From: Amycolatopsis acidiphila
GTDB lineage: Bacteria; Actinomycetota; Actinomycetes; Mycobacteriales; Pseudonocardiaceae
Assembly (NCBI RefSeq): GCF_021391495.1
Contig: NZ_CP090063.1
Coordinates: 248,001 to 312,000, forward strand
DNA length: 64,000 nucleotides
Direction of reading: 5' to 3'
Both the position numbers and the translations under genes were made by a program. Below the pieces are notes generated by a model. It had not been told where the DNA came from. It saw only the letters and a list, made by a program, of their open reading frames with translations, and searched no databases. Below, piece by piece: positions 27,990 to 36,631 of this stretch. The first letter of the stretch is position 1. Each line of letters starts with the position of its first letter.

Positions 27990-28195
27990 GTCGTGAAGTC
28001 TGCCCGGACGGGCAGCCGTCCGCTTGAACGAATCGGACACCGTTCCACGGCGAGTAGGCAGACGCTGCGCCGAACGGGTGAAAGTTCAAGCGTCCGACCA
28101 GGCCGTTCGAAAAAAATTCTGGCCGTGTGTATCTGGAGCAGCCCGCCGTGCGTCATAGGAGCGTTGGTTGAATTGGCCCCCCAGTTGGAGGATGC

Positions 28196-29344
28196 ATGAG
28201 CTCCGACCGCTCTTGCGAGGAGGAAATCGCGGCGATCCGCGATTCCCTTGCCACGCTTGGGGATCCGTGGCAAGCAGGGGAGACCTTGCTGAGCAGGCTG
28301 GGGGGCGGGTCGCGTGCGGTGCGGCTGGGGGTGCCGGCCCCGAGTGCGGCCGCGGTCGAGGCCAGGGCGGACCTGCCCGGGCTGATGGCCGAGGCCGCAC
28401 TCGGGACTGCCGGGCAGCAGTGCACGGCGGCGTACGCGCCGACGTGGGAGCTGCCGCGGGCCTTCGACCTGCGGCGGACGTGCGACGGCGACTACACCAC
28501 GCCCGTCAAGGACCAGGGGGAGCGCGGTTCTTGTACCGCGTTCGGGGTCATCGCCGTGCTGGAGGGGACGGCGGCGTACACCCGGCGGGCGGCGCGGCTG
28601 GATCTGGACCTGTCCGAGGCACATCTGTTCTTCGGACAGGCCACCAGCCGCCAGCTCGGTGGGGAGGACGGCACCTGGCCGGACGACCTGCTGGGCGACT
28701 GCGTGTCGACCGGGGTCACCTTCGAGGACTACTGGCCCTACACCGACACCGGTGCCGGTTCATTGAACCCGAACTGGCCCAACCGTCTCGTGCACGCGGA
28801 GAAGATGGTCGACCTGACCCGGGACCCGGCGGGGATCAAGCACCACATCTACGGGTACGGGCCGGTCACCACCTGCATGGTGGTGTACGAGGACTTCTTC
28901 CACTACACCGGCGGCATCTACCGGCACACCACCGAGGAGACCAACGGCGGCCACTGCGTCGCCCTCGTCGGCTGGGACGACGACCAGGGCTGCTGGATCG
29001 CGAAGAACTCGTGGGGCACCGGCTGGGGGGAGGGCGGCTACTTCCGGATCGCCTACGGGGAGTCCTACATCGAGGACTATCCGGAGGAGCGGCCGACCAC
29101 GCTCGGCTGCACGGGCACCACCCTGCGCGCGTGGTTACCCGCGCAACGCGCGCTCGGCCTGTTCGCGTCGGCGCAGGACGCGGGCGGATGGGCGTTTCTG
29201 GAGAACCTGGGCTGGACGCGGCTCTCTGGGGGAAGGAGCGGCGCGAACCAGCTCGCGCTGCTCGCCGAGGCACGGGCCGGCGGCTATCCCGTCATCCCGT
29301 ACGTCGTGAACGAAGAGTTACGAATGGTCCAGACCACATTCTGA
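28196..29344 (+). CDS. Cytoplasmic papain-like (C1) cysteine protease
   Basis: A 382-residue protein with a C1-type peptidase domain at about residues 90-310. The catalytic triad is complete: Cys113 in DQGERGSCTAFGV (with the oxyanion Gln), His253 in NGGHCVALVGWDD and Asn271 in AKNSWGTGWGEGGYFRI. There is no signal peptide, so it should act inside the cell. The N-terminal 85 residues may be a pro-like or recruitment segment (RLGVPAPSAAAVEARADLPG). The last 70 residues have no clear family. Two rare TTA leucine codons occur (29135 and 29318). The repeat-protein gene follows after 25 bp, suggesting one transcript. The target is unknown; the neighbouring sigma/CHAT genes suggest signalling. Confidence 0.85.
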   Translation: MSSDRSCEEEIAAIRDSLATLGDPWQAGETLLSRLGGGSRAVRLGVPAPSAAAVEARADLPGLMAEAALGTAGQQCTAAYAPTWELPRAFDLRRTCDGDYTTPVKDQGERGSCTAFGVIAVLEGTAAYTRRAARLDLDLSEAHLFFGQATSRQLGGEDGTWPDDLLGDCVSTGVTFEDYWPYTDTGAGSLNPNWPNRLVHAEKMVDLTRDPAGIKHHIYGYGPVTTCMVVYEDFFHYTGGIYRHTTEETNGGHCVALVGWDDDQGCWIAKNSWGTGWGEGGYFRIAYGESYIEDYPEERPTTLGCTGTTLRAWLPAQRALGLFASAQDAGGWAFLENLGWTRLSGGRSGANQLALLAEARAGGYPVIPYVVNEELRMVQTTF

Positions 29345-29369
29345 TCGTGCGAGCAGGGGAGCAGTAACG

Positions 29370-30005
29370 ATGACCACGAGCGAAACCGAGAAGCCGGCCA
29401 CCGGGCCGGAGGACGACCCAGAACCGACCCACGTCAACGCCCCGACGGGTGCGTGGGATCCGAATACCCCGCCGCCCACTGGCGCGTGGGATCCGAACAC
29501 TCCGCCGCCGACGGGTGCGTGGGATCCGAATACGCCGCCACCGACTGGCGCGTGGGATCCGAACACTCCGCCGCCGACGGGTGCGTGGGATCCGAATACG
29601 CCGCCACCGACTGGCGCGTGGGATCCCAATACGCCGCCGCCCACTGGCGCCTGGGACCCGAACAGTCCGCCGCCGACCGGCGCGTGGGATCCGAACAACC
29701 CGCCGCAGCCCCAGCCGCCCGCGCCGCAGCCGCAGCCACCCGCGCTGCGGCCGCAGCCGGGCAACGGGACTGCCCCGCAGGCCACCGGCCTGTGGATCCG
29801 CAACCGCGTCATCACGCATCTGCTCTCCTCGAGCGCCTGCCCAGGCGTGTGGGTGTTCGTCGCGGGCCTGGGCTGGAAGCAGCTCGCGGCCGTCGAAACG
29901 GGCCGCAGCCCGTTGACCGGTCTCGCGGTGCTGGCCAAGGCCAACGGGCTCACTGTGTCGTTCCACGAGAACGCCTACGGCCTGATCGACCAGTTGCTGG
30001 TCTGA
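29370..30005 (+). CDS. Repeat protein with eight 11-residue PTGAWDPNTPP units
   Basis: A 211-residue protein with three parts. An acidic Thr/Glu-rich leader (residues 1-24) is followed by eight tandem PTGAWDPNTPP units (residues 25-112), the last two with Ser and Asn variants. A Pro/Gln linker leads to a compact C-terminal domain (about 135-211) with TGLWIRNRVITHLLSSSACP, VWVFVAGLGWKQLA and a closing HENAYGLIDQLLV. I recognise no family. The Trp-Asp-Pro repeats look like an unstructured spacer or multivalent binding strip. It is probably cotranscribed with the papain-like protease, so it could be its substrate or adaptor. It is followed by a strong terminator. Confidence 0.7.
   Translation: MTTSETEKPATGPEDDPEPTHVNAPTGAWDPNTPPPTGAWDPNTPPPTGAWDPNTPPPTGAWDPNTPPPTGAWDPNTPPPTGAWDPNTPPPTGAWDPNSPPPTGAWDPNNPPQPQPPAPQPQPPALRPQPGNGTAPQATGLWIRNRVITHLLSSSACPGVWVFVAGLGWKQLAAVETGRSPLTGLAVLAKANGLTVSFHENAYGLIDQLLV
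29442..29705 (+). repeat. Eight tandem 33-bp coding repeats
   Basis: Eight in-frame 33-bp units code for the 11-residue repeats of the preceding entry. Units 2 and 4 are identical, as are units 3 and 5, showing a 66-bp higher-order repeat that arose by recent duplication. Units 7 and 8 are diverged. The array is likely to vary in copy number between strains. Confidence 0.9.
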
Positions 30006-30013
30006 CCTGAGCT

Positions 30014-30052
30014 GGTGGTGGCCGGCAGCCGAGGGGGCCGCCGGCCACCACC
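30014..30052 (+). terminator. Hairpin terminator after the protease/repeat-protein operon
   Basis: Perfect 13-bp arms (GGTGGTGGCCGGC and GCCGGCCACCACC) with a 13-nt loop, starting 9 bp after the stop codon. It separates the protease pair from the sigma/CHAT operon. There is no U-tract. Confidence 0.7.
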
Positions 30053-30422
30053 GTCCGGCGGGCCGCCGAAGTGGACAGACCGGGACGCCGCGCACGCCAG
30101 GCCGACGAGGGGAGACGGCAGGCGTGTGGGGGTGCGGCGGAGACGGCGGTGCACGAAGGCGGTCCGGTGGTCGTCGAGGCACTGAGCGGGGGGGACGACC
30201 ACAGGGTGCGGTGGCCGTGGGGACGGCCACCGGGTGCAGGGGGGTGGCCGGCCGGCGTCCGAGAGCCTCGGCGCCGGTCGGCAGCTACCGCGGCGTGACA
30301 AAGTTCCTTACGCCAATCAGGTGACATTTGTATCTGACGGTCGCAAGGCTTCTCTCATACGGCGAAGGCGGGATACTGCGAGCGTCGTTCGAGGAGAGAC
30401 CACGGAGAGCGGGGCGAATGGG
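30053..30422. other. Intergenic region before the sigma factor gene
   Basis: About 370 bp with no credible gene; the open frames are shadows with no ribosome site. The last 120 bp are noticeably AT-richer (around 30297-30370), with TGACA elements at about 30296 and 30321, and are the likely promoter region of the sigma/CHAT operon. No sharp -35/-10 pair could be fixed. Confidence 0.4.
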
Positions 30423-31028
30423 GTGACGGAAGTCCACACCGCCGAGGCGGACCCTCCCTGGGAAGGCCTGCGCGGCCCCGAACTGTTCGAAGCGTGCCTG
30501 CACGCGGCTCGGGAAGGGGACAAACGCGGGCTGGACCGGCTGGTCGCCGAGTTGACGCCGCTCGTGTGGAACGTCGCGCGCGGCCACGGGCTGGACAAGC
30601 ACACCGCCGAGGACGTCGTGCAGACGGTGTGGCTCGCCCTGCTGAGCAACCTCGACCGGCTGCGTGAGCCCAAGGCGCTCGCGGGCTGGCTCGTCACCAC
30701 CGCCCGCCACGAGTCACAGCGTTCCAGCGGCCGGAAACAACCACCCGTGCCGTTGACCGACGAAATGGCCGAGGCCGTGCCCAGCACGTTGCCCGCACCG
30801 GAAGCCGAGGCCCTGCGCACGGAGCGGGACCGCCGGATCTGGGCGGCCTTCGGCAAGCTTCCGCAGCGGTGTCAGGAACTGCTGCGGCTCACGGTGCTCT
30901 CCGGACGCGCGGAGTACCGGGTTGTCGCCGAGGCATTGCAGATGCCGCGGGGCAGTATCGGGCCCAACCGAGGCCGCTGCCTGAAGACGATGCGCGAACT
31001 GCTGGACATCGAAGGGGGCAGCGCATGA
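30423..31028 (+). CDS. Sigma-70 family (ECF-like) RNA polymerase sigma factor
   Basis: A 201-residue sigma factor. Region 2 spans LFEACLHAAREGDKRGLDRL, then ELTPLVWNVARGHGLDKHTAEDVVQTVWLALLSNL (residues about 22-80), with the core-binding and -10 recognition helices. AGWLVTTARHESQRSSGRK closes region 2. Region 4 is LPQRCQELLRLTVLSGRAEY, RVVAEALQMPRGSIGPNRGRCLKTMRELL, the -35-binding HTH. The start is uncertain: GTG 30423 is used. The stop overlaps the start of the next gene (ATGA), a CHAT-operon beta-sandwich protein, so the two are translated together. No classic zinc-finger anti-sigma gene is adjacent. Confidence 0.85.
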   Translation: MTEVHTAEADPPWEGLRGPELFEACLHAAREGDKRGLDRLVAELTPLVWNVARGHGLDKHTAEDVVQTVWLALLSNLDRLREPKALAGWLVTTARHESQRSSGRKQPPVPLTDEMAEAVPSTLPAPEAEALRTERDRRIWAAFGKLPQRCQELLRLTVLSGRAEYRVVAEALQMPRGSIGPNRGRCLKTMRELLDIEGGSA

Positions 31029-31504
31029 ACGAGATCCAGGCGCCGGAGGGCGCCCATCCAGGGGACGAAGCGTTGCTGGCCGATCTCGACCGCCTGCTGG
31101 CGGTCTGTGATCCGCCGCCCGCCGGGCTGGTCGAACGGGTTCAGTTCGCACTGGAGCTGGAGGACCTCGACGTGGAGGTCGCGCGCTGGGAGCGGGCCGA
31201 CCAGCTGGCCGGCGTCCGCAGCAGCGTCGACCAGGGCACGATCACCTTCACGGTGAGCGATCTGACCGTGATGATCAACCTGACGAAGGTCGGCCGCTGC
31301 CACCGCATCGACGGCTGGCTGGTGCCCGCCGGTGAGCACGGGGTCGAGGTGCGGGTCGCCGGGCACGGTTCGTCGGCCACGGTCTCCGACGAGGGCGGGC
31401 GGTTCGTGCTGGACAGCGTGCCGCGCGGGACCACGCAGATCGTCATCTCGGTCGGGGGTGCGGCCAGCCGGCGCACCGTGGTGACTCCCGCCGTCGTGCT
31501 CTGA
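31025..31504 (+). CDS. Small protein with carboxypeptidase-regulatory-like beta-sandwich; candidate sigma partner
   Basis: A 159-residue protein. The N-terminus (about 15-60) is helical, with LLADLDRLLAVCDPPPAGLV and ERVQFALELEDLDVEVARWE. A beta-rich part follows: TITFTVSDLTVMINLT, then VEVRVAGHGSSATVSDEGGR and FVLDSVPRGTTQIVISV. The last two segments match the CarboxypepD_reg-like fold. It overlaps the sigma gene by 4 bp (ATGA) and lies 48 bp before the CHAT gene. The position and helical N-terminus suggest an anti-sigma or sigma-tethering role, possibly cut by the CHAT protease. That is inference; no cleavage site can be read. Confidence 0.65.
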   Translation: MNEIQAPEGAHPGDEALLADLDRLLAVCDPPPAGLVERVQFALELEDLDVEVARWERADQLAGVRSSVDQGTITFTVSDLTVMINLTKVGRCHRIDGWLVPAGEHGVEVRVAGHGSSATVSDEGGRFVLDSVPRGTTQIVISVGGAASRRTVVTPAVVL

Positions 31505-31552
31505 CCTCACCAGCTGTATGCGTTCGGACACAGGTGTGCTCAGATAGTTCGC

Positions 31553-34141
31553 GTGGCCGGACCTCGCGAACTGAAACGAGTTCTCGCGCGCAGCGGCCAG
31601 CTGCACGCGAAGGCCGCCGACGCGTCGGGGAACCTGCACAACGTCGACGCCGTCCGCCTGCTCAACCGCGCTTTGAAGCTCCTGGACTCCTTCGGTCCGT
31701 GCGGTGAACCGGACTGGGTGCAGCTGCGGGCGCGCGTGCTCATCAGCCTTGCCATCGCCGAAGCCGAGGTCGGCTCGACGGCCACCGGCCTCGCCCGCCT
31801 CGATGACGCCGCAACGCTTCCCCGGCTGCTTCCCGAAAGTTCCGCGCCACACCTGCTCAGTGCGGTCATCGACGCCCAGCGAGCGCTCGTGCTCTGTCGC
31901 GTAGGCCGGTTCACCGAAGCACTCGACCTGTTCGACGCGATCATCCCGGTGCTCGGTCGCGACGCCGAGGACAACGCGCTTCCCCTGTCGCGCAACCTGA
32001 TGAACCGCGCGCTGGTCCACATGAGCCTCAACAAGCCGGACGCCGCGCTTTCCGATCTGCGCCGCTGCATAGATCTGGCCGAGCGACACGGTCTGGTCCG
32101 GATCGAGGGAAAGGCGCGGCACAACTTCGGCGACCAGTCCCAGCTCGTCGGCGACATCCCCGAGGCACTGCGGTACTACGAGCAGGCCGCCCGGATCTAC
32201 GAGGCGGAGATCCCCGGCTGGTTGCCGCGGCTGCGGCTGGACCAGGGGCGCGCGCTGCTGACCGCCGGTCTCGGCGAGGAGGCGGCCCGGCATCTCGACG
32301 AAGCCTTGCCGGAGCTGCGGCGCAACCGCGCGATTCAGGACGTCGCCGAGGCGGAGGTCGCCCGCGCCGCCGCCGCGATCCTCGACGGCGACTTCGCGCT
32401 TGCCCGGCGGCTGGCCGCCGACGCACGACGCCGGTTTCTCCGGCGCGGCAACGAAAGATGGGCCGAAGTCGCGGCGCTCGCACGGCTGCGCGCGAACGCG
32501 AACGAGGCGCTCGAAAATGAGCGACGGCCGCCCGTCCGGCTGTCCGCCGAGCTCGCGGAGCACGCGACCCGGCTGGCGGAGCTGGGCCTGCGCGACGAGG
32601 CGGCGGTGGCCCGGCTGCTCGCGGTCCGCCTGCACCTGCGCCGCGGCGCGGTCGACGCGGCCGAGGAGCTGCTCGCCCAGATCCCCAAGCCGCGTCAGAC
32701 CACCCCTGTCGACCACGTGATGCTGCTGCGCCTGTGCCGCGCGGAGCTGGCGGTGGCGCGGGGAAGTTCGCGTGCGGCGCTCGCCCAGGCACGCGCCGGG
32801 TTCGTCGAGCTGAGCCGGGTCCGCGACCGGATGGGCGGGCTGGACCTGGTGTGCGGCACGGCCGTGCACGGGCAGGCGCTCGGGCGGCTGGCGGTCGGGC
32901 TTGTCCTCGGCCGCGCACGCGGGAATGCCGGTGCCCGAAGGGTTTTCGCCTGGCAGGAGCGCACCAGGGCGCAGGTGTACCGCTACGAGCCGCTGCCCGA
33001 GATCGCCGATCCCGTGCTGGCGCGGCTGATCACCCAGATGCGGCACGTGCAGCGCATCGCGCAGCAGAACCGGCTCGATGGCAAGCCGGTCGGCGGGCTG
33101 GAGCAGCGGTACGTGCGGCTGCAGCGCGAGGCGAGCCGGCTCGGCTGGTACACGAGCCAGTGGGGGAAGCCGCGACCGGTGTGTACCCCGGAGCAGGTCG
33201 CGGCAGACCTCGGCGAGCGGGCGCTGGTGAGCATCACCGGCCACGGCGACCGGCTCTCGGCCGTGGTCGTGCGCGACGGGCGGTTCCGGCTGGTGGGGCT
33301 CGGCGCGTTGGCGGAGACCGTCGAGATCACCAAGCAGCTGCACGCCGACCTGAACGTGCTCGCGCCCGATCACCTGCCCGCGCCGCTGGTCGAAGCGGTG
33401 ACCCACTCGGCGCAGAAGCGGGCCCGGCTGCTCGACCGGCTGCTGGCGGAGCCGCTGGCCGACGCGATCGGCGACCGCGAGCTGGTGATCGTCCCGTTCG
33501 GCCCGCTGTACGCGTTGCCGTGGGCCGCTTTGCCTTCGCTGCGTGGACGTCCGCTGTCGATCGCCCCGTCCGCGACGGCGTGGCGCACCGCGGCCGTGCA
33601 CGCCGAGCCGGAGCCGGTGGTGCTCGTCGGCGGGCCCGGTGTGCCCGGCGCGATCGGCGAGGTACGGGAGCTACGTTCGGTGTACCCGGGGGCCACGCTG
33701 GTCGACGGACCGAACGCGACGAGCCAGGCGGTGCTCGCCGCGCTGGACGGCTCGGGTCTGGCGCACCTGGTCGCACACGGCGCACACGAGCCGGCGAACG
33801 CGTTGTTCTCGCGCCTGGATCTGGTCGACGGCCCGCTGTTCGCACACGAGACCGCGCGGCTGCGGCATCCCCCGGAGCGCGTCGTGCTGGCGGCGTGCGA
33901 GCTGGCGATGAGCCACATCCGGCCGGGCGAGGAGGCGCTGGGTTTCGCGGGGGCGCTGCTGGCCGGTGGTTCACGTACGGTCGTCGGAGCGGTCGCGCGG
34001 GTCGGCGACACCGCGGCCGCCGAGGCGATGACCGATCTGCACCGCCTGCTGGCGAAGGGCACGTCGCCCGCATTGGCCCTGGCGGAAGCCACGGCGGCCG
34101 ACCCGCTGCGGCGGCCGTTCCTGTGCCTGGGGGCGGGTTAG
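31553..34141 (+). CDS. TPR-CHAT protease (caspase-like)
   Basis: An 862-residue protein. Residues 1 to about 450 are helical repeats of TPR type: LLNRALKLLDSFGPCGEPDW, ALVLCRVGRFTEALDLFDAI, MNRALVHMSLNKPDAALSDL, GDIPEALRYYEQAARIYE and more. Residues about 560-862 form a CHAT caspase-like domain. The predicted dyad is His742 in HLVAHGAHEPANALFSRL and Cys782 in VVLAACELAMSHIRPGEEA; AGALLAGGSRTVVGAVARVGD follows. CHAT proteases cleave partner proteins when their repeat region senses a signal. It sits in one operon after the sigma factor and the small beta-sandwich protein. The start appears to be GTG 31553. Its end overlaps the convergent deacetylase gene by 4 bp. Confidence 0.88.
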   Translation: MAGPRELKRVLARSGQLHAKAADASGNLHNVDAVRLLNRALKLLDSFGPCGEPDWVQLRARVLISLAIAEAEVGSTATGLARLDDAATLPRLLPESSAPHLLSAVIDAQRALVLCRVGRFTEALDLFDAIIPVLGRDAEDNALPLSRNLMNRALVHMSLNKPDAALSDLRRCIDLAERHGLVRIEGKARHNFGDQSQLVGDIPEALRYYEQAARIYEAEIPGWLPRLRLDQGRALLTAGLGEEAARHLDEALPELRRNRAIQDVAEAEVARAAAAILDGDFALARRLAADARRRFLRRGNERWAEVAALARLRANANEALENERRPPVRLSAELAEHATRLAELGLRDEAAVARLLAVRLHLRRGAVDAAEELLAQIPKPRQTTPVDHVMLLRLCRAELAVARGSSRAALAQARAGFVELSRVRDRMGGLDLVCGTAVHGQALGRLAVGLVLGRARGNAGARRVFAWQERTRAQVYRYEPLPEIADPVLARLITQMRHVQRIAQQNRLDGKPVGGLEQRYVRLQREASRLGWYTSQWGKPRPVCTPEQVAADLGERALVSITGHGDRLSAVVVRDGRFRLVGLGALAETVEITKQLHADLNVLAPDHLPAPLVEAVTHSAQKRARLLDRLLAEPLADAIGDRELVIVPFGPLYALPWAALPSLRGRPLSIAPSATAWRTAAVHAEPEPVVLVGGPGVPGAIGEVRELRSVYPGATLVDGPNATSQAVLAALDGSGLAHLVAHGAHEPANALFSRLDLVDGPLFAHETARLRHPPERVVLAACELAMSHIRPGEEALGFAGALLAGGSRTVVGAVARVGDTAAAEAMTDLHRLLAKGTSPALALAEATAADPLRRPFLCLGAG

Positions 34142-34869
34142 CCGAGGAAGTCGGGCAACGGCACGGGAGTCAGACCATCCCTTGTGGACTGGTCGACGAA
34201 CGCGGCGAAGTCCTCCGTGAAGGTCTTGCGGAAGTGCATCAACACGATGTCGCCTGGTTGTAAGCGCTTTCCCTCCTGGAAGTCGACGCGCCCGTCGTTC
34301 ACGGACGCCGTCCACAGCACGCTCGCGCGCATCCCGCAGTTCGCCGCGGCCTTGAGCGTGTTGTCGTCCCAGTTGCCGAACGGCGGCCGGAACAGCACGG
34401 GCCGGACGCCGAGCGCGCGCTGCAGGTCGTCGGCGTCCTCGCAGATCTCCTCCTGCTGGTACGCCAGGGACTTGCCCTTCAGGTCAGGGTGGTTCACGGT
34501 GTGGTCGCCGAGCGTCGCGCCCGCCGCGAGCACCTGTTTGAAGTAGTCCTCGTGCCCGCGGACGTAGATTTCGTTGAGGAACAGCACCGGATGCGTGCCC
34601 GACTCGCGGATCAGCCGCGGTGCGTCCGGGTCCGGCACCGCGCCGTCGTCGATGGTGAGGAACACGAGCGGCCTGTCGACGGCTATCCGGCGCACCTGCG
34701 GGACCTTCCCGTCGACGATCGGCCCGGCCTGCTGCTGGACCTCGCCGGCGGGGTAGGGCGCGTTCAGGTGCAGCGACGGTGGTGTGTAGCTCGGTACGGC
34801 GGCCTCGGTCCGCGTGCAGGCGGTCGTCAACGCCACCAGCGCGAGCGCTGCCGCGAAGGCGCGTTTCAT
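34138..34869 (-). CDS. Polysaccharide deacetylase-family lipoprotein
   Basis: A 243-residue secreted protein. A lipoprotein signal peptide, MKRAFAAALALVALTTACTR, has the lipobox cysteine at about residue 18. The NodB-type domain has VFLTIDDGAVPDPDAPRLIR (the TxDDG metal motif), ATLGDHTVNHPDL (the H-x3-H zinc pair), VRPVLFRPPFGNWDD (RPPFG) and GDIVLMHF. It would remove N-acetyl groups from a cell-wall or other polysaccharide at the outer face of the membrane. The longer open frame upstream belongs to a neighbouring gene in another register and was rejected. It overlaps the end of the CHAT gene by 4 bp. Confidence 0.85.
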   Translation of the reverse strand: MKRAFAAALALVALTTACTRTEAAVPSYTPPSLHLNAPYPAGEVQQQAGPIVDGKVPQVRRIAVDRPLVFLTIDDGAVPDPDAPRLIRESGTHPVLFLNEIYVRGHEDYFKQVLAAGATLGDHTVNHPDLKGKSLAYQQEEICEDADDLQRALGVRPVLFRPPFGNWDDNTLKAAANCGMRASVLWTASVNDGRVDFQEGKRLQPGDIVLMHFRKTFTEDFAAFVDQSTRDGLTPVPLPDFLG

Positions 34870-34943
34870 CCGGCGTTCCCCTTTCTCGAACCACAAATAA
34901 GTCGTGGTGGGGAACGTTGTTGTTGCACTTCCCGGACGTGATC

Positions 34944-35390
34944 TCAGTCGCGTTCGGCCGCGCGCACCAGTTGTGCGGAGACGAACGTGATCACTCCACG
35001 CAGCAGCTGTCGCACGACCGGGCCGCTTCCCGGGATCTTCTCGGTGAACGAACCCCGCCAGCGCAGGTCGGTGCCACCCGCGGCGTTGGGGGTGAAGGTC
35101 ACCTCGGCGCGGTAGTCGTTCACCGGTGCCGAGCGGGCGAGGGTGTAGACGTGGCGCCGGTCCTGTTCGTACTCGAGGGTCTCCTCGTACACGAGCACGG
35201 GGAACAGCCCGACGCGGCGGATCGCGCCGATGCCGCCGACGGGATCGGCCCACCGCTCCCAGCTGGACTGCACGATCAGCGGCTTGGCCCAGTCGGACCA
35301 GTGCGCCCCGTCGGTCTCGAGCCGGAAGAGCGTGGCGGGCGAGGCGCTGCTCGTGCGGTTGACCTCGAAGGAGAACGTCTTCGGTGGCAT
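34944..35390 (-). CDS. SRPBCC-family protein
   Basis: A 148-residue polyketide-cyclase/SRPBCC protein. TFSFEVNRTSSASPATLFRL and ETDGAHWSDWAKPLIVQSSW are the typical first strand, helices and W-x-x-W turn. Later strands are YEETLEYEQDRRHVYTLARS, DYRAEVTFTPNAAGGTDLRW and a long C-terminal helix PVVRQLLRGVITFVSAQLVR. Such proteins bind hydrophobic ligands. ATG 35390 was chosen since upstream sequence is the promoter region of the divergent small-protein gene. No ligand can be named. Confidence 0.75.
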   Translation of the reverse strand: MPPKTFSFEVNRTSSASPATLFRLETDGAHWSDWAKPLIVQSSWERWADPVGGIGAIRRVGLFPVLVYEETLEYEQDRRHVYTLARSAPVNDYRAEVTFTPNAAGGTDLRWRGSFTEKIPGSGPVVRQLLRGVITFVSAQLVRAAERD

Positions 35391-35493
35391 GGCGTGGGTC
35401 CTTCCGGTCGGCGATGCTGGGATGGATCTTGCCGCATCATCGACCAGGTGACATCGCGGTGCGCGGGAGGCCGGATCGGTGTTCGATGGCTTC

Positions 35494-35721
35494 ATGGGCA
35501 TCAACTTCGATGAGATCAAGAAGAAGGCTCAGGACGCGCTGGGCCAGAACGCCGAGAAGATCGAGCAGGGCATCGACAAGGCGAGCGGTTTCGCCAAGTC
35601 GAGGCTCGGGCAGCATGCGGACAAGATCGACAACGTGAGCAGCAAGGCGAAGGACTTCCTGCACAAGAACCAGGGCGGCGCGGGTCCCGACACGCCCGGC
35701 CCCGGTCCGGCGCAGCAGTAG
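35494..35721 (+). CDS. MT0933/Rv0909-type small 'antitoxin' protein
   Basis: A 75-residue, highly charged helical protein. INFDEIKKKAQDALGQNAEK and KASGFAKSRLGQHADKIDNV match the MT0933-like family, annotated as antitoxins from mycobacterial Rv0909-Rv0910. A short Gly/Pro tail ends it. In mycobacteria the partner toxin Rv0910 is an SRPBCC-fold protein. Here an SRPBCC gene lies immediately upstream but divergent, a suggestive arrangement. ATG 35494 was preferred over GTG 35479. The toxin-antitoxin role is unproven. Confidence 0.7.
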   Translation: MGINFDEIKKKAQDALGQNAEKIEQGIDKASGFAKSRLGQHADKIDNVSSKAKDFLHKNQGGAGPDTPGPGPAQQ

Positions 35722-35829
35722 GTCCCGCGGAACGTCCCCCGCCCCCGGCGGTTTCGGTCGAGGGCGGGGTTTGGTGTGTCCTTTTGCGGTGGCTTTGGGG
35801 GCCGGCAGGTCGGCTTCGCGGCTGCCGCT

Positions 35830-36631
35830 GGCAGGTGCTTTGCGGCTGAGCTGCTGTCGTTCAGGCCACCTCGCGCCGGGCCGTGCTGCCGCCACCGGCC
35901 GCGCTGCTTGCGCCGCTCGGCCGCCTCCGCCGCTCGGCCGCGTCTTACCCGAGACGCCGTCCGGCCCCTCGCGCCGCACCGCGCGCTACCGCCGCCCGCC
36001 GCACCGCGCGCTACCGCCGCGCCGCGCCGCCGGCCGCGCTGCTCGGCCACCGCCGCCACCCGCCACAACGGCCGCGTCTCGCCCGAGCCGCCGCCCGCCA
36101 GCCTCCGCCCGGCTGCCTCGCGCCACACCCCCACCAGCCACACCGCGCGGCCGCCACCACACCCGGCGCCACCGCCGACCACCGCCGCCGCTTGGCCACC
36201 TCGCGCTACCGCCGCCCGCCAGCCGCGGCCCGGCCACCTCGCGCCAACACCGCTCGCCGTCACGGCCGCGCCGTGTGCCGCCGCCGTGCCCGTGCGCTGC
36301 CGCCGCCCGGCCGCGTCCCGCCCGAGCCGTCGCCCGGCCGCCTCGCGCGCTAACGCCGCCCGCCACTCGGCCACCCAGCCGCACCGGGCGCCGCCGCACC
36401 GGGCGCCGCTACCGGCCGCGCCACCTCGCGGCCGCCGCTGGCCGCGCCGTCACACCGCGCGCCGCCGCCGGTCGCCGCCGTCACACCGCGCGCCGCCACC
36501 GTCACAGCCGCGCCACACCGCGCGCCACTGGCCGCCGCCACCGCCCGCCGCGCGCCGCCACCGACCGCGCCGCACGTCCGCCGCCGCCACCGACGGCCGT
36601 GCGCCGCGACCGCCCCCAGCCGAACCGCCGC
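35830..36631. repeat. C-rich low-complexity tract with degenerate repeats
   Basis: About 800 bp made almost wholly of C/G with extreme strand asymmetry (C-rich on the plus strand). It has short imperfect repeats: CACCGCGCGCTACCGCCGC twice near 35978-36020, GGCCACCTCGCG at 35865, 36195 and 36232, and GCCGCGTC...CCCGAGCCG at 36072 and 36310 (238 bp apart). A copy of the last 14 bases of tyrA (TCAGGCCACCTCGC) occurs at 35860 as well as at the real end of tyrA (36632). All frames are Arg/Pro/Ala or Gly/Arg/Ala low complexity, with no start signals or domain. I see no gene here. Confidence 0.7.

Follow-up and report, generated by a model that had tools for sequence, protein, structure and literature searches.

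A candidate protease-gated sigma factor switch in Amycolatopsis acidiphila: adjacent genes for an ECF sigma factor, its probable inhibitor and a caspase-like protease

The window analysed here is a stretch of 64,000 nt from the soil bacterium Amycolatopsis acidiphila (GCF_021391495.1, NZ_CP090063.1 positions 248,001-312,000, forward strand). Three genes lie side by side on its plus strand, where a first-pass annotation had placed them: S (30423..31028, GTG start), encoding an ECF sigma factor of 201 aa; M (31025..31504), encoding a middle protein of 159 aa with a putative function as anti-sigma factor; and C (31553..34141, GTG start), encoding a TPR-CHAT protease of 862 aa. S and M overlap by 4 bp (ATGA) and a 48-bp gap separates M from C, again as annotated. 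The S protein scores over the cut-offs of both Pfam Sigma70_r2 (3.3e-12) and NCBIfam sigma70-ECF (1.1e-19). Upstream of S, on the same strand, a leader (30321..30379) contains two conserved boxes, GTGAC...TGTATC at 30321-30334 and GATACTGC at 30372-30379. With two mismatches allowed, the leader-box pattern gives 53 matches in the genome, compared with 44 for the pattern read backwards, and 11 matches within the window, where 10.5 are expected; because it is built on the most frequent spacing and does not recover the box of the window itself, it is a weak test for a regulon. The one open frame to span both S and M (L155), considered as a natural fusion, proved to be a sigma gene interrupted by a frameshift and was rejected.

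The C protein matches Pfam CHAT (1.3e-27) and TPR_12 (6e-10). Its CHAT domain, delimited by Pfam and by alignment to Craspase, covers residues 621-847 (33413..34093, plus strand) and contains the predicted catalytic residues His742 (33776..33778) and Cys782 (33896..33898), at the positions originally assigned to them. Both are invariant among 76 aligned CHAT proteins (that of the window and 75 of >700 aa), and the dyad is intact in all 163 distinct CHATs having both columns, so that C possesses the CHAT domain with intact His/Cys dyad that defines a CHAT peptidase. The arginine-reading residue of separase is not conserved, its column being Ala823 in C, which counts against the switch reading developed below. 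Craspase K670 has been equated with separase D2151 (PMC9729208). Asp819 of C, conserved in 158 of the 163 CHATs, was considered as an arginine-reading residue and dropped as support, since in an alignment to Craspase, counted by hand, it lies four residues before the K670 column.

M is predicted to consist of two helices (residues 14-28 and 35-47) followed by a beta-sandwich (mean pLDDT 78), matching the helical N-terminus and carboxypeptidase-regulatory-like fold that had been described for it. The helical segment (residues 14-47; 31064..31165, plus strand) is presumably the sigma-binding part, and the Ig-like or carboxypeptidase-regulatory-like sandwich covers residues 70-159 (31232..31501), as judged from Pfam (CarbopepD_reg_2 at 1e-4, below cut-off), the model and fold searches. 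Searches with the models of the window M and of a Rubrobacter M returned common beta-sandwich matches only, resembling common binding folds at middling scores; no anti-sigma entry was among the fold matches listed for either model, in searches that barely probe the helices. An evident membrane segment is absent from M; of 190 called M genes, one exceeds a simple limit on hydrophobicity. Helices and sandwich are joined by a linker (residues 58-67) in which Arg65 (31217..31219) is kept in 236 of 240 distinct M sequences. In both predicted models the linker arginine sits inside this low-confidence and probably disordered segment, which makes Arg65 a candidate cut site.

The S-M-C triad is found across Actinomycetota, Streptomyces and Rubrobacter included. 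Among 30 short loci of relatives, S adjoins M in all 30 and C is present in 28, and the grouping is therefore more than chance; 49 of 80 named loci carry S-M-C and another 30 carry S-M. This neighbourhood survey supports the view of the genes as a conserved unit, although the 30 named loci without a linked C count against the switch reading, as do M genes without a neighbouring S (L344, L345) and pairs of C and a subtilase without S-M (L219, L221, L226). At the genome level, 75 of the 76 M-positive genomes in a 394-genome sample of the class have a gene for a TPR-CHAT protease of the family as well, in some cases unlinked, and C was located elsewhere in each of the 21 genomes searched that have S-M without a linked C. 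The original three-gene picture thus stands for the window and is incomplete beyond it, as loci outside the window's family commonly include an S8 subtilase as a fourth gene. The subtilase is added in many distant relatives, mostly without a signal peptide, and often forms with C a pair of its own away from S-M; it probably acts in the same cascade. No close subtilase of the family was found in the window genome.

The association of sigma, CHAT and carboxypeptidase-like genes is already published as the mainly actinobacterial group ECF54, for which subtilase neighbours are also described, control by proteolysis was proposed and an anti-sigma factor was assumed to be absent (Casas-Pastor 2021 and Huang 2015, via the review PMC8999054). 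The window shows part of this context, with CHAT and carboxypeptidase-regulatory-like genes beside an ECF sigma gene. It differs in that its genome is without a family subtilase, which many relatives have, and in that M, as the present analysis adds on sequence grounds, is probably the anti-sigma factor of ECF54-type loci. In a literature search for which subscription papers were mostly outside reach, we found no paper that calls M an anti-sigma factor or tests it as one.

The evidence for this assignment comes from the Rubrobacter orthologues. Nine of 12 Rubrobacter M proteins match NCBIfam anti-sigma models (best 5.3e-5, below the curated cut-off), and the model of a Rubrobacter M has a four-helix N-terminus followed by the same beta-sandwich as the window M. 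The Rubrobacter M profile scores 29.1 against anti-sigma sequences, compared with at most 8.4 in 60 shuffles and at most 4.5 for ten unrelated profiles, with an hhalign probability of only 55%; as these sequences were gathered with NCBIfam NF052375, partly below its cut-off, the NCBIfam matches and the profile score are not independent. The window-clade and Rubrobacter M proteins are homologous (E 1.8e-12). The first two helices of the Rubrobacter-type N-terminus are missing from the window M, which itself has no anti-sigma match in Pfam, NCBIfam or the anti-sigma profiles. The N-terminus of window-clade M compared directly with anti-sigma factors (score 4.6, shuffles up to 6.2) was rejected as not significant, and compared with the Rubrobacter N-terminus it scores 9.1-11.3, no better than the control at 11.4. 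The window M would thus be tied to anti-sigma factors through orthology and gene position, and not through its own helices. The first-pass statement that no ordinary anti-sigma gene is adjacent agrees with profile searches using the window protein, but has to be qualified by the anti-sigma-like domain of the Rubrobacter orthologues, from which the role first suggested for M, that of holding the sigma factor, appears likely. Mean-field DCA, covering sigma-M only (237 pairs, effective number 133, 15 full shuffles; paired sequences were also counted for M-CHAT, 128, and sigma-CHAT, 125), gave top inter-protein couplings that exceed the shuffles and are scattered over M without singling out the helices. 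We do not use them as evidence because shared phylogeny explains them equally well.

A precedent is the type III-E Craspase, in which Csx29 cuts Csx30, the inhibitor of a sigma factor (PMC10028731). Both systems combine a TPR-CHAT protease, a middle protein and an ECF sigma factor (CASP-sigma in Craspase), and the CHAT domains of C and Craspase are homologous (E 2e-8). However, C scores 16.2 bits against the Csx29 model (cut-off 300), with no match over the cut-off in the genome, and M has 159 aa, against residue numbers as high as 565 for Csx30 in the same source. Furthermore, the window has no CRISPR-like array, its direct repeats being coding or two-copy. The N-terminus of Rubrobacter M also matches domains of the RskA/zf-HC2 type, anti-sigma factors subject to regulated proteolysis, from which M differs in its lack of an evident membrane segment, its C-terminal beta-sandwich and, in the window, the missing first two helices. 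Finally, a transcriptional output was proposed for caspase systems that include TRADD-N/EACC2, ECF sigma and TPR genes (PMC8195603). They likewise join a caspase-like peptidase to an ECF sigma factor and a TPR protein, but neither EACC2 nor DUF1822, both described there, is matched by the window proteins in Pfam.

Together, these features lead us to give about an even chance to S-M-C being a transcription switch of the ECF54 kind that is gated by a protease and involves no CRISPR, with M as a soluble anti-sigma factor cut by CHAT. In the resting cell, the N-terminal helices of M would hold the ECF sigma factor, while the beta-sandwich would dock to the TPR-CHAT protease or stabilise M. Once its signal reaches the TPRs of C, CHAT would cleave the flexible linker of M, most likely on the C-terminal side of Arg65, and the sigma-bound piece would lose its grip or be degraded. 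The freed sigma factor would then join RNA polymerase, allowing the response genes to be read. In the window genome, this cascade would run without a subtilase.

Other arrangements of the same genes have to be weighed. The published ECF54 proposal, stated in PMC8999054, has no anti-sigma factor: sigma would be controlled through its own degradation by the proteases, with M serving as an adaptor at most. The window M, lacking an anti-sigma match of its own, fits this, but the Rubrobacter M in the same gene position carries an anti-sigma-like domain, and we consider the proposal unlikely for these loci. The proteases could also be outputs, M controlling sigma via another signal and sigma activating C and the subtilase, which would serve as effectors of stress or defence with other proteins as their targets. 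Cell death is a possible role of CHAT proteases (PMC9729208) and C and the subtilase often pair away from S-M, yet in many loci C follows S and M within one operon and nearly every M keeps the linker arginine, making this reading rather improbable. That M is a ligand-sensing anti-sigma factor, in which binding of a small molecule or protein to the sandwich releases sigma with no cleavage, we regard as very improbable: the resemblance to common binding folds has middling scores, no ligand site was identified, and the tight co-occurrence with CHAT and the linker arginine would be left unexplained.

Extending the protease-gated switch to the whole group, we tentatively suggest, at somewhat less than even likelihood, that loci of the ECF54 type form a widespread counterpart of Craspase that works on its own. 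In these loci, a TPR-CHAT protease resembling separase would cleave a soluble anti-sigma factor at a single conserved position in the linker (hydrophobic-Arg | Gly/Ser/Ala; Arg65 here), and the sigma factor, once released, would turn on a regulon for stress or defence. Rubrobacter would have kept the complete anti-sigma domain, and the other actinobacteria would have shortened it. Because the same gene set recurs across many actinobacteria, the suspected cut-to-switch-on mechanism is now directly testable. If true, the sigma factors of the ECF54 group would have a definite partner protein, with a candidate cleavage position that a change of one residue could test, and the way in which type III-E CRISPR acquired the same logic could be compared with theirs. 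Caspase- or separase-like proteases would then govern transcription in actinobacteria, among them Streptomyces, through cleavage of an anti-sigma factor and with no part played by CRISPR.

The three genes that the first-pass annotation had placed in one operon were confirmed on the plus strand, with an ECF sigma factor (S, 30423-31028) overlapping by 4 bp a 159-residue middle protein (M, 31025-31504), which is followed after a 48-bp gap by an 862-residue TPR-CHAT protein (C, 31553-34141). A polysaccharide deacetylase gene is convergent with C, and the closest named relatives of this M are from Amycolatopsis. The leader of S carries two conserved boxes (30321-30334 and 30372-30379, plus strand) with the inverted words GTATC and GATAC at a spacing of about 40 bases, and an Rfam search of 28000-36000 returned 0 matches. 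A box pattern built on the commonest spacing, which misses the window's own box, matched the genome 53 times at 2 mismatches against 44 times when reversed; within the window it matched 11 times, with 10.5 expected.

The triad is kept as a unit, as had been anticipated: of 30 short loci from relatives (1.5-kb flanks), all 30 have S next to M and 28 also have C. The 80 named loci, mostly from Amycolatopsis and related genera, comprise 49 with S-M-C, 30 with S-M and no linked C, and one M-C at a contig edge; in all 21 genomes searched from the unlinked group, C is found elsewhere in the genome. Across 394 sampled genomes of the class, M occurs in 76 and the family CHAT (E <= 1e-40) in 128, and 75 of the 76 M-positive genomes are also CHAT-positive (Fisher p 2e-44, uncorrected for relatedness), the single exception being 75% complete. 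Furthermore, when 19 of the 53 CHAT-positive genomes seemingly devoid of M were re-examined, 16 proved to have M next to CHAT (15 by a simpler count). Variants were also seen. In a Saccharothrix locus (L100:10715-13762), CHAT is replaced after S-M by a gene combining HTH, NB-ARC/STAND-like ATPase and TPR domains; in one genome with three M copies (G515), the M homologues at L344 and L345 have no neighbouring sigma gene; and in L155 a frameshift splits the M-adjacent sigma gene over two frames. A record titled Rhodococcus rhodnii (JOAA01000004.1) has a locus similar to those of Kibdelosporangium and comes from a 12.4-Mb genome, and is perhaps mislabelled.

M is probably an anti-sigma factor, judging from sequence comparisons with distant relatives. 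The window's M is modelled with helices at 14-28 and 35-47, a low-confidence linker at 58-67 and a beta-sandwich; fold searches with this model and the Rubrobacter one gave common beta-sandwich matches. In a coevolution analysis of 237 S-M pairs, the strongest couplings between the proteins exceeded 15 full shuffles but were spread over M rather than concentrated in its helices, a pattern that shared phylogeny accounts for equally well. A phylum scan matched M in 55 of 396 genomes and pointed to Rubrobacteraceae (the L362 protein is identical to one of Rubrobacter marinus), in which the gene order is S-M-C-P, P being an S8 subtilase, and M is longer, with four N-terminal helices, a linker and the same sandwich. 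The NCBIfam 'anti-sigma factor' model matches 9 of 12 Rubrobacter M (best 5.3e-5, under the curated cut-off), and RskA_N and zf-HC2 each match one of the 12. Compared with 28 anti-sigma sequences, the Rubrobacter N-terminus scored 29.1 (E 1.7e-5, probability 55%); 60 column shuffles averaged 2.3 and peaked at 8.4, and ten unrelated profiles reached at most 4.5. Window-clade M is homologous to Rubrobacter M (probability 97.7, E 1.8e-12), with an alignment that starts just before the second helix. The window-clade N-terminus alone did not rise above controls against anti-sigma or Rubrobacter profiles, so the case for the window's M as an anti-sigma factor comes from orthology and gene position. 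The earlier remark that no ordinary anti-sigma gene is adjacent agrees with profile searches of the window's M, which gave no anti-sigma match, but not with the matches of its Rubrobacter orthologues.

The linker of M contains a candidate cleavage site, Arg65, present in 236 of 240 distinct M, around which positions 60-62 and 67-69 vary freely. By weight, about 97% of sequences have Gly, Ser, Ala or Asp immediately after it, and Val, Leu, Thr or Ala predominate immediately before; the Rubrobacter equivalent, R105, is invariant in 14 sequences and lies in a low-confidence stretch (95-112) of the model. The predicted His/Cys dyad of CHAT is indeed present, and intact in 163 of 163 distinct sequences. 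Separase, which CHAT resembles, cuts after arginine. By a hand count on the alignment, however, its arginine-reading column falls on Ala823 of the window's CHAT, which would speak against cutting after Arg65 by CHAT; in Craspase, the type III-E CRISPR protease system, the residue is a lysine (PMC9729208). The linker arginine might instead contribute to sigma binding, or might serve the subtilase.

P was found in the same cluster in distant relatives (Peptidase_S8, 2e-16 to 2e-26, five tested). When loci at least 7 kb long are considered, S-M-C-P occurs in 28 of 38 M-positive loci of the class, 10 of 19 CHAT-positive loci where M was first missed, 10 of 20 further CHAT loci (P also adjoins C in 8 of the 9 of these without S-M) and 23 of 36 M-positive loci of the phylum, two of the 36 being without a confirmed gene. 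In a set of 98 distinct P, to which repeated records contribute, 7 have a hydrophobic N-terminus by a simple test, so most look cytoplasmic; a strict pattern found all three catalytic motifs in 64 of the 98. A close P is absent from the window genome (best E 1.7e-16) and from five of six other three-gene genomes (1e-16 to 6e-21), and in the sixth P lies beside a second CHAT. P is near S-M in 0 of 80 named loci, and 20 of 21 genomes with unlinked S-M encode it (E <= 1e-65), one being without. Some P of the system carry 3 to 11 tandem hexapeptide repeats (NPFMKT, PFHASN, PFTRGA, NPYGRT, NPAYQG and others) before the catalytic domain, in 25 rows, or 19 after removal of repeated records of the same genomes (including L145:6589-8157, L150:4373-5974, L154:4229-5848, L350, L353 and L359).

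Upstream of S are, both on the plus strand, a papain-like (Peptidase_C1) protease gene (28196-29344) and, between it and S, a gene for a 211-residue protein with eight 33-bp repeats (PTGAWDPNTPP; 29370-30005), with relatives in 28 and 26, respectively, of the 71 named loci at least 15 kb long. Their C-termini share 17 of 42 residues (E 2e-5, a single comparison), and only these two genes in the genome match this short domain (E <= 0.01). They are possibly a protease-partner pair or a sigma target.

In type III-E CRISPR, Csx29 cuts Csx30, an inhibitor of an ECF sigma factor (PMC10028731). The CHAT domain of C shows homology to Craspase chains (E 2e-8), but profile search of the window protein and the whole genome did not place C in Csx29. 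The proposed protease-to-transcription reading is partly upheld, in its conserved unit, likely sigma holder and intact dyad; to a protease-gated switch, in which CHAT would cut M and so free S, we give an even chance. An association of this kind is already in print for ECF54, a sigma-factor group with carboxypeptidase-like, subtilase and CHAT neighbours, for which control by proteolysis and no anti-sigma factor are assumed (PMC8999054). What is new is likely the Rubrobacter link pointing to M as an anti-sigma factor, together with M's dependence on CHAT at the level of whole genomes, the conserved linker arginine of M, and a subtilase-free form of the system.
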